Assembly (NCBI GenBank): GCA_903871875.1
Contig: CAIQIR010000079.1
Span: 62,001 to 126,000 of the forward strand
Direction of reading: 5' to 3'
DNA from: an uncultured Schlesneria sp.
GTDB lineage: Bacteria; Planctomycetota; Planctomycetia; Planctomycetales; Planctomycetaceae
Length of the DNA: 64,000 nt
The notes beneath the pieces are model-generated. The model did no database searches, was not told the origin of the DNA, and worked only from the letters and a program-made list of their open reading frames with translations. The position numbers and the translations under genes were made by a program. This document shows, one piece after another, positions 4,114 to 17,701 of the stretch (its first letter is position 1; each line of letters begins with the position of its first letter).

Positions 4114-4166
4114 GGCTCTTCGAGCGAGAGCCCTGACTACTCTAGTCAACTCTTCCTGTTAGTCAA
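4114..4166 (-). promoter_or_regulatory. Probable promoter and leader hairpin of the Ala/Thr/Pro-rich gene
   Basis: Read on the minus strand there is TTGACT (4161-4166), a 16-base spacer and TAGAGT (4139-4144), a fair sigma70-like pair. Downstream of it the leader carries a 6-bp hairpin (GGCTCT / AGAGCC at 4114-4132). The -35 region and the six bases after it, TTGACTAACAGG, occur identically upstream of rfbA. The match is approximate at the -10. Confidence 0.4.
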
Positions 4167-13449: not shown

Positions 13450-14173
13450 CTGAGTATCGCTCCGCAGTCGGTCTCGATTCTGTCTCGGCGCGATCCAATG
13501 ACACCGAGACTCTGCTGGATTCTGTGAGAATGGCTCGTCGAAATCAAGCGGGAACGGTTAACGATGCGAAGTGGGCGGTTGCAGGTACTCGATTGAGACG
13601 ACTTTGGACGTGGAACTTGTCCATGAAATCAACGCGATCCAGGTTTGATTTGGGGGGGGACACAAGCCGCCGAACTGTTTGTCGGGGCACGTTCAACCGA
13701 ATGACACCGCCCCGGGACTGGCACAACCAGATCGATCAGGTGTGAAGCAAAAAGTTCAATTGGTGGCAGCAGATTCTCCAGCGTGTAGTATGCTTGTTAA
13801 GGATTCGAAAGGTGATTGCCGGGTGATTTTCTGGCACCAGATAAACGGTCCAAGACGACCGGTTTGTGGAATTGGCACGATCGTCGTAATTGAACCGTCT
13901 TGTTTGATTGTCATGAACTGCCAATTCCCAGACGTCGTCGCCCGCACCGTGCGTATTTACCGAGACGAGACGCAAGTCAAGGATCGGTCGAGCCGAAACG
14001 ACAATGACGCTTTCCATCGGCTGTGCTCGTGATTTGTCGCTATCAGACTTAATTCAGGCGATTGTGAGAAACTCCACAATCGTCAAAGGCCGCATTCTTG
14101 GCCCAAGCGAAGAATCGCATACGTCGTCTCGGAGTCTGGGCTGAGGGAAGAATGTCGTCGAGGAATGTGCTGC
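13450..14173. other. Long intergenic region, no gene accepted
   Basis: About 720 bases upstream of both the LDxIRxQ protein (minus) and the FHA protein (plus). Small open frames on both strands (for example 13524-13745 plus, 13736-14017 minus) lack ribosome binding sites and recognisable products. Promoters of both flanking genes should be here; I saw no clear consensus pair. Confidence 0.45.
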
Positions 14174-16861
14174 ATGATGACCTCAATCGCGACTTCGAAG
14201 AACCGCCAGCGCAGCTCCGTGCGATCCAGAAGCCTTTTGGTGATGGAGCCGCCTCGGCATTCTCATCTTCCGCTGGTGTTTCTCGACTTCGGCAAGCATT
14301 TGATTGGCACGAGCGACACTTGCACGATCCGCATTGCCGCCGAGGGCGTGCAGCCGCGTCATGCCATGATTCTGGTCGGCGAACAAAAGGTGTTGCTGAA
14401 GGCACTGGATTCCAAGACTTGGGTCAACGACGGCGTTGTCTTGGAAACGACCTTGAGACCCGGTGATCGGATCAGCATTGGTCCCATCACTTTTGCTGTC
14501 CGTTTCGCCACCGCCGACGAGTTGAGCGACCATTACTCGGAACAAGCCGAGAATGATTTGGCGGCTGCAGTTGTGGTCGCGCCGACGCCCGAACCGCAGC
14601 CGACTGAAAGGCGTGCACCCGAACGGCATGTTCCTGCGCCTCGCGAGGTCGCATTGCCAGCCGCGGCGTTGGTCCCCGAATTGAAGGATCCGGATGAGAC
14701 TGCCCTGCAGGATGTTCAACGTCAGATCCAGGCATTGACCGCGGAAACGGCGATCCGCCAGGAAGTTCCACCGTCTGCCGTCAGCTGGCAAGAGAAACAA
14801 CAATTCGCTGCCCGCGAAGGCCAACAAAAGATTCTCGCCGGTGAATTGACTCGTCATTCGCAACGACAGCGCGAGCGGGAGGTTCATCTCGCCAAACGCG
14901 AAGCCGAATTGGAACAGAAGCAATCGCAACTGGCGATCGAGAATGAGCGGCTGGTGACGACGGCCCAGGCCACTCGCCGCGAATTGGTGGAAGAACACGC
15001 CCGGCAAAAGGCGCTCTGGCAAGAATGGGACGCCGCCTATCGTCGCACGGCAGACGATCTGAAGGCTCAGCTGGAGACAATCGAACAACGCCGGGCCAGC
15101 ATACAAATTGAAAATGATCGCCTGGTTGCCGATCGAGCCGAAGTGCAACGATTGCAGTCCGAGTACGAAGGCGAACGCCGCGTTGCTGCGGCCGAACGCG
15201 TTCAAGCTGCAGCCGAACTTGGCGAACTTCATGCGCAACGAGCGGCGTTCGAGACCGAACGCCGGCAGCTTCTCGCGGACATTCAGGAGCGCGAAGCCCA
15301 AGTTGCCAATGAACGTCGCGCCCTGGCGGTGGCTCAGGATGAACTTCTGGCGGCCCGCCAGGAGATCACACACGATCAAACGCGGTTCGCCACCGAACGA
15401 TCAGAAGAGTCGATGCGTCTCGAACAGCAAGTTCGCGAACAGACAGTGGCTCAAATGCGCCTGAACGAAGAAGCGTCCGAACTGCAAACGCTGCGGCTTG
15501 AGTTGGAATCCACTCGACGTTCGCTCGAAGAACAACACGCTGAATTCGAACGACATGTCGAATTCGATCACGACAATGAGCAGTCCGATATTTCTGACGC
15601 CGAGATCGATGAGCTTCGCTGCCAGTTAACTGACGCTCAAAACGAACTGCTGCTTGGCCGGCGTGTTCAGCACGAACTGCAGTCGCAGATTGAGAATTTC
15701 GAACGCGAGACTCGTCGCAAGACCGAGGAATTCGAAACCTGGCAGCGGACTCTGGAAACACAACAAGCACAGCTTGAAGTGGTGCGTGAGAAGCTGCAAT
15801 TGGATCGAGAAGCGATCTCTGCCGCGAAGGCACAGGTGACGCCCGTCGTCGTTTCTCCTCAGAACGATTTGCCGTCTGAAGGTGGTTCGAAAACAAGTTA
15901 TTCTCCCCCGATCACGGTGGAAGAATTGCTGGGGATTTCGACGGCCGAGCAACCTACTGACGATTTTGCGAGGCTGACCGAATCGGGTTTATTTGATGGT
16001 CTGAGGCCCGAAACCGATTCGTTGTCGTCCGCGTTTTTCGCTTCGTCCACGACCGAGTTGCCACCCACGGGGACGGGGAATTACGAGTTTGGAGCGTCCA
16101 CGGCTGCCGATGAGCTGGATTCTGGTTTTTCGAACCATCATCGCGATCCCGGTGGATTCGTGCCGGCGCCGGTGATCGGCCTGGATCGCGGCCCCCACTC
16201 GTCGCCGGTTTCGACTGTCGTGGCTGCGTCACGCGGTGGCGCGTTATCCAACGAGGCCGAGACCGATGTTGTTTTCGAGCAAGAAACGGCAGCGGTAACG
16301 GTACCGATGCCGGAAGAAGTCGTGACAAAATCGTCATTGCCTTCAGTGGATGCGACGCTGGTGGATATCAATCGACGTTTTGGCTTCTTGACGACGCCGT
16401 CGACCGCTTCGCCGGATGGCATACTGCCTGAGACGGAAACGCCCAATGAAGTGGGAACGTCCGCACACGAATCTTCAGGTCTCTCAGAGGCCACCCCTGC
16501 AAATGGGCCGCTTCCAGGGAAACCAGTGGGAGGCTTGTCGCTGCCGGACTTGCGTGCTCAACTCGCTCAGATGTTCGACTTGCCTGAAGAGACGCAATTC
16601 GAATGTGGATCGACATTCGACAGTGCTGTGACCGAGGAGTTGCAACAGTCAGAATTGCCGCCGGAAGCGGTGTCGACTGAAGAAAGCGATCAAGGTCTGG
16701 CCCAGCAATCGTCATCCGAAGTCTCGTCAAATGTGATGTCGTCATTCGATTCGTCTGAGGCCGGCGGATCGGATGTCGGTGATGAGTTTTCGCTGTCGGC
16801 GGCGGACTCGCCTTTAGCGGTCGAGACCTCGGAAGTTGTATGCGATCGAGGAACCGGTTGA
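14174..16861 (+). CDS. FHA-domain coiled-coil protein, frame-broken at its 3' end
   Basis: An 895-residue protein as read, with AGGA nine bases before the ATG at 14174. The N-terminus holds a forkhead-associated (phosphothreonine-binding) domain: LPLVFLDFGKHLIGTSDTCTIRI, then VQPRHAMIL and LLKALDSKTWVNDGVVL, ending near residue 115. Residues about 200-570 are a long Gln/Glu/Arg/Leu-rich coiled coil with heptad-like spacing. The remainder is acidic Ser/Thr/Glu-rich and likely disordered. The frame ends abruptly with CDRGTG, while the +1 frame continues with the same acidic style and then two membrane segments (16836-17597). The intact protein was probably about 1140 residues and membrane-anchored at the C-terminus. 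Role unknown; FHA proteins in planctomycetes often accompany Ser/Thr kinases. Confidence 0.8.
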   Translation: MMTSIATSKNRQRSSVRSRSLLVMEPPRHSHLPLVFLDFGKHLIGTSDTCTIRIAAEGVQPRHAMILVGEQKVLLKALDSKTWVNDGVVLETTLRPGDRISIGPITFAVRFATADELSDHYSEQAENDLAAAVVVAPTPEPQPTERRAPERHVPAPREVALPAAALVPELKDPDETALQDVQRQIQALTAETAIRQEVPPSAVSWQEKQQFAAREGQQKILAGELTRHSQRQREREVHLAKREAELEQKQSQLAIENERLVTTAQATRRELVEEHARQKALWQEWDAAYRRTADDLKAQLETIEQRRASIQIENDRLVADRAEVQRLQSEYEGERRVAAAERVQAAAELGELHAQRAAFETERRQLLADIQEREAQVANERRALAVAQDELLAARQEITHDQTRFATERSEESMRLEQQVREQTVAQMRLNEEASELQTLRLELESTRRSLEEQHAEFERHVEFDHDNEQSDISDAEIDELRCQLTDAQNELLLGRRVQHELQSQIENFERETRRKTEEFETWQRTLETQQAQLEVVREKLQLDREAISAAKAQVTPVVVSPQNDLPSEGGSKTSYSPPITVEELLGISTAEQPTDDFARLTESGLFDGLRPETDSLSSAFFASSTTELPPTGTGNYEFGASTAADELDSGFSNHHRDPGGFVPAPVIGLDRGPHSSPVSTVVAASRGGALSNEAETDVVFEQETAAVTVPMPEEVVTKSSLPSVDATLVDINRRFGFLTTPSTASPDGILPETETPNEVGTSAHESSGLSEATPANGPLPGKPVGGLSLPDLRAQLAQMFDLPEETQFECGSTFDSAVTEELQQSELPPEAVSTEESDQGLAQQSSSEVSSNVMSSFDSSEAGGSDVGDEFSLSAADSPLAVETSEVVCDRGTG

Positions 16862-17597
16862 AGAAGAAACGGCGTGGACCCGTCGATTGCGCGAGCTGTC
16901 CCAATTGGTTGCGGTGGATCCTGTCCCCCTGTCCGTGCCGCCGATCAAATCCGAGAACGAAGTAGCGGAAGAGGAGGCGACGGAATCCGAATCGCTGTCG
17001 GAACTAGAACCGGTCGAATCGAATTCGATGGAAGCGGAGAGCGAGGACGATGAATTCTCGGTCGAAGCGCAACTCGCTCGTTTGTTAGGGCGACTGCGAC
17101 GAGTTTCGTCGGATCGGGCCAATGCCGCGGCAGAGGCAAGTCATGATCGGAATTCGGTCACGAGCGAGGATTCATCGCCTGAGCTGACCATTCCCGAGAG
17201 CCATTCTTCGGATCGGTCTCACTTGAAAGCAGAGCCGACGCACAAGCAAAACAAGAATGCCGTTCGCGACGAAGTGCAGTCGTTCCGTGAGGTGGCACAG
17301 ATGTCGGCTCGCACGGCATTGGCCAAACATTCCTGGAAGAATTTGAGAAGCAAATTCTACTTTACGCTGGGCCTGACGATGGTTTCTGGCGCGGCGGCGT
17401 CATGGTATATGGGTGCCTATATCAATGGCACGGAAACCGATATTTGGAAGGGTGCAACGTGTGCCTTGACCACGGCTTTCTGTACTCAACAATTGATTTG
17501 GTCATCGAGTAAATTGAATCAGGTCCGCCGCAAAAATGGAACGCGACCTGCCGCCAACAGCCGACCGGCGGCATCGTCAGACGAACCGACTCCCTAG
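16836..17597 (+). CDS. C-terminal membrane part of the frame-broken FHA protein
   Basis: This frame overlaps the end of the FHA/coiled-coil frame by 26 bases, is shifted by +1, and is open from 16818. It begins with the weak start TTG (no spaced ribosome binding site). It continues the acidic Ser/Glu-rich composition, then has a helical segment (ARTALAKHSWKNLRS) and two hydrophobic stretches around residues 178-198 and 208-225. A single extra G near 16838 would explain the break, since removing it restores a smooth V-Y-A-I-E-E junction. I read this as the natural C-terminus of the upstream protein, separated by a mutation, a sequencing error or a recoding site. Confidence 0.7.
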   Translation: MYAIEEPVEEETAWTRRLRELSQLVAVDPVPLSVPPIKSENEVAEEEATESESLSELEPVESNSMEAESEDDEFSVEAQLARLLGRLRRVSSDRANAAAEASHDRNSVTSEDSSPELTIPESHSSDRSHLKAEPTHKQNKNAVRDEVQSFREVAQMSARTALAKHSWKNLRSKFYFTLGLTMVSGAAASWYMGAYINGTETDIWKGATCALTTAFCTQQLIWSSSKLNQVRRKNGTRPAANSRPAASSDEPTP

Positions 17598-17659: not shown

Positions 17660-17701
17660 AACGAAAACACCCGGCAGAAAATCATGCCGGGTGTTTTCGT
17701 T
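17660..17701. terminator. Strong bidirectional hairpin terminator
   Basis: A perfect 17-bp inverted repeat (17660-17676 with 17685-17701) around an 8-base loop, with GC-rich core CACCCGGCA and A/T-rich ends (AACGAAAA / TTTTCGTT). It sits between the convergent FHA and aldolase genes and can serve both. Confidence 0.88.

Follow-up and report, generated by a model that had tools for sequence, protein, structure and literature searches.

A planctomycete gene for an FHA-like, coiled-coil protein, very probably split from its membrane anchor by a net +1 frame change

Two consecutive open reading frames in a planctomycete genome are very probably one gene, broken by a net +1 change whose source is a recent mutation or else a mistake in the consensus sequence. 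A new mechanism is unlikely; the break is most probably of an ordinary kind, in a gene family that is uncharacterised. The two frames lie in a stretch of 64,000 nucleotides, here called the window, that corresponds to bases 62001–126000 of a 279 kb contig; the source assembly is a draft of 7.6 Mb in 178 contigs. The genome that carries the window copy (G000) was compared with genomes of the same genus, family and class. The relevant features, in order of position, are:

14160–14164, plus strand: Shine-Dalgarno-like GAGGA, 9 nt 5' of ATG 14174, identified from the sequence
14174–16861, plus strand: ORF1, encoding an FHA-like domain, a long coiled coil and an acidic linker, with a premature end at TGA 16859–16861
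14300–14482, plus strand: FHA-like domain, identified by a Pfam match
16816–16859, plus strand: interval holding the net +1 frame change, delimited by the switch in codon usage and by single-base removal
16818–17597, plus strand: second half of the gene in the +1 frame, with the AWTRRLRELSQL block, an acidic linker, a conserved Ser-Ala-Arg helix and two weak membrane segments
16848–16861, plus strand: GAGGA-ACCGGT-TGA, a Shine-Dalgarno-like pentamer 6 nt before the stop and the only local feature favouring recoding
17662–17699, no strand assigned: strong inverted repeat that separates the FHA gene from the convergent aldolase gene and is likely to act as a two-way terminator, identified by a minus-strand self-match and the sequence

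Although the mechanical start of ORF1 is ATG 14165, ATG 14174 is the more likely start because of the GAGGA that lies 9 nt upstream of it. The N-terminus of ORF1 aligns with that of the orthologue in G007. At its other end, ORF1 closes on the residues ...VVCDRGTG*, and the +1 frame is open from 16818, both as described in an earlier note on this DNA. A score for codon usage, trained on this contig, follows the ORF1 frame until ~16815 and the +1 frame from ~16865, and it reveals no non-coding gap between the two. The only start near the break for the second ORF is TTG 16836, the poor start of the earlier note, which has no Shine-Dalgarno match; the first in-frame ATG, at 17028, likewise has no such match.

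That the two frames encode one protein, broken by a one-base frame change, had been proposed from the window alone, and fused orthologues now support this strongly. The split is not a matter of chance, because a single frame of 1307 codons in G007 (locus L028) covers both halves; in the alignment, the first half reaches residue 1053 and the second half begins at residue 1056 of that frame. Other members of the genus (G010, G011, G012 and G013) also have both halves fused in one frame, as do most of the same-family loci examined, and the gene in G004 is split by contig ends only. The AWTRRLRELSQL block, which directly follows the ORF1 stop in the +1 frame, recurs unchanged in G007 and almost unchanged in G004. 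Indeed, the alignment with the orthologues passes straight over the break, and the split noted earlier is confirmed. Matches to the second half were found in 23 of the 59 relatives searched, nearly all of them within frames that range from several hundred to 2000 codons in length. Separate genes for the membrane part, which the earlier note had set against its own proposal, occur only in distant relatives from other families and as one shorter paralogue in G011, but not in place of the orthologous gene in the genus members examined. The paralogue (L045, G011:C129) is a 527-codon frame with the C-terminal domain and no FHA-like domain detected. G000, G007 and G004 are syntenic, the gene adjoining the same convergent aldolase gene in each; the aldolase is 94% identical to the window copy in G007 and 84% in G004. 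Apart from this aldolase, which accompanies the gene in G007 and G004, and a different neighbourhood common to G008, G010, G011 and G012, no conserved neighbourhood that hints at function was found.

Where does the frame change? The frames rejoin without a stop if any one base in 16816–16859 is removed; losing two bases elsewhere in that stretch is formally equivalent. An extra G near 16838 had been suggested. The one-base frame change holds, but any position in 16816–16859 fits, and the V-Y-A-I-E-E junction that was put forward with it is a possible rejoining but one among many. Relatives are too variable at the junction to pick among the possible rejoined sequences.

The net +1 change may be real, or it may belong to the consensus alone. 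There is about an even chance of a real and recent frameshift, with the FHA/coiled-coil part produced unanchored and the gene heading for loss. This fits the patchy presence of the gene within the genus and the further in-frame stops in relatives. It also fits a scan for breaks across the contig and 251 kb of other contigs (~530 kb of the assembly), which returned few candidates and no general indel problem, although the scan was crude and breaks beside a chance start codon would be missed. The other candidate breaks on the contig were taken on inspection for unrelated frames or ordinary junctions between genes, and none of the candidates inspected in the scan resembled the present break. Against a real mutation, the written base is unverified, and the downstream half is undecayed, so a mutation must be very recent. 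After the break, 19 residue changes are unique to G000 and 24 to G007, indicating no decay, and divergence is highest at third codon positions; therefore, the event is either very recent or not real. The likelihood of a consensus error, with the gene intact in the organism and an extra base (or two missing bases) arising from sequencing or assembly, falls a little short of even. Both of these weightings are matters of judgement. The draft state of the assembly, with its 178 contigs, is consistent with an error, as are the in-frame fusion in close orthologues and a downstream half that shows no sign of relaxed constraint. However, the break site has no homopolymer longer than 3, and comparable breaks are very few in ~530 kb of the same assembly, which together speak mildly against errors being a general problem. 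Sequencing or assembly error and real mutation, two of the three explanations in the earlier note, are still viable, whereas the third, recoding, is unlikely.

In a programmed +1 ribosomal frameshift, ribosomes would stall at UGA 16859 and some of them would shift, such that both unanchored and anchored proteins would be made. This is very improbable here. A fuller version, in which the base is real, a +1 shift at GAGGA-ACCGGT-UGA yields free and membrane-anchored forms of a scaffold, and the recoding site has arisen in this one lineage, has a similarly slight chance of being correct. The programmed +1 frameshift of prfB has a Shine-Dalgarno-like element 6 nt upstream of UGA, as does the window junction. 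Indeed, the prfB gene of this genome (L173 near 1495–1509, G000:C19) carries the classical +1 site GGGGGTCTCTTTGAC, GGGGG-TCT-CTT-TGA-C, and the GAGGA at the junction has the same spacing. The downstream frame is also well kept. However, unlike prfB, the junction has neither CUU-UGA-C nor any other known slippery codon; it reads GGT TGA A, meaning that the P-site GGT must re-pair on GTT, which is no good +1 partner, and that the base following the stop is A, not C. Nor is the frame change conserved: relatives read one frame, and none changes frame at this position. The RNA downstream of the junction shows no excess of structure over shuffled sequences (z 0.87), and Shine-Dalgarno-like pentamers precede the stop in 3 of the 123 TGA-ended ORFs on the contig, a background of ~2%. 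It is also highly unlikely that the two ORFs are separate genes, each normally started. Other families of the class do have stand-alone genes for the C-terminal domain that lack an FHA-like domain, but only TTG 16836 is available near the break, without a Shine-Dalgarno match, the coding signal is continuous over the break, and the fused state prevails within the genus.

What would a net +1 disruption of a single gene mean for its product? The intact product would be ~1150 residues long and would comprise the FHA-like domain, the long coiled coil, the acidic linker, the C-terminal helix and a two-helix membrane anchor. Judging from these parts, the intact protein is probably a membrane-tethered scaffold, with a cytoplasmic FHA-like head, a long coiled coil and a C-terminal membrane hairpin. 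A net +1 base change in 16816–16859 would cut the reading frame. As the sequence is written, the ribosome would stop at 16861, and truncation would presumably release the FHA/coiled-coil part without an anchor; the anchor half would be left without a good start. The gene looks dispensable because 7 of the 15 genus genomes have no match to the C-terminal domain. In-frame stops in relatives were also counted as a sign of dispensability (TGA in G008, TAG in G151, and TAA beside a gap in G075).

The FHA-like domain was identified by a Pfam FHA match to residues 46–106 of the protein (P0001; E=4.5e-8). The score for the FHA domain (PF00498) is 33.9 bits, above the gathering cut-off of 20.7, whereas that for Yop-YscD_cpl (PF16697) is 27.7 bits, below the curated cut-off of 33.2; hence, Yop-YscD_cpl membership is not claimed. 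A phmmer search of the PDB with the single FHA segment gave no match, and a 14-member profile of the segment matched FHA domains there, with a best E of 3e-11; the domains matched include those of FhaA (TB39.8), Ki-67 and GarA. In FHA domains, the Asn of the phosphothreonine site is the Asn of the Asn-Gly loop. The window domain differs from FhaA (TB39.8), Ki-67, GarA and the PDB FHA domains in having Thr in place of the canonical phosphothreonine-site Arg (14309–14311), Gln in place of the canonical Ser (14351–14353), and an Asn-Gly loop that is two residues shorter. The phosphothreonine-binding residues of FHA domains are Arg, Ser and Asn (PMC10470591). Judged by its residues, therefore, the domain does not support the phosphothreonine-binding label that the earlier note had given it. 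For annotation, the label should be dropped and both ORFs merged into a single disrupted gene. The phosphothreonine residues are poorly conserved in the YscD/PrgH-type cytoplasmic FHA-like domains as well (PMC3635987), and the weak Yop-YscD_cpl match in the window protein is a second point of likeness to that type. Unlike the YscD/PrgH type, the window gene encodes a long coiled coil and a C-terminal anchor; no secretion-system context was seen around it.

The C-terminal domain is widespread. Of 170 family genomes, 126 have it, with only rare exceptions in long frames; short frames are few. Among the short ones checked, those in G025, G036, G101, G102, G160, G077 and G148 are cut off by contig ends, and those in G151 and G075 have in-frame stops. 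A class-wide profile search with the domain found matches in 133 of the 297 genomes sampled, and some families of the class other than this one also carry it in short genes where no FHA-like domain was detected (L176, L177, L178 and L182). The two membrane segments described previously are clearer in relatives, where the Kyte-Doolittle mean reaches 2.7, but weak in the window copy, where the best 19-residue mean is 1.07. A Pfam search with the C-terminal domain gave no convincing family, NCBIfam yielded no useful name, and a literature search found no study of a planctomycete family that combines FHA, coiled-coil and two-membrane-helix parts. The C-terminal domain, a helix plus two membrane segments, thus represents an undescribed planctomycete family that is found class-wide and has no convincing Pfam match. 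The window gene has the same order of parts as the uncharacterised planctomycete FHA/coiled-coil/two-membrane-helix proteins, such as that of G007 (L028), and it has the AWTRRLRELSQL and SAR(S/T)ALA motifs in common with them. The window gene differs from these planctomycete relatives, which read one frame, in being split by the net +1 frame change.

Individual relatives carry interruptions of their own. The copy in G008 (L030) is a second disrupted copy, with its in-frame TGA on the reverse strand at 904–906, between the FHA-like domain and the coiled coil. In G151 (L132), the in-frame TAG lies within the coiled coil, at 4154–4156. In G075 (L129), the TAA lies next to a run of N, together with changes of frame.
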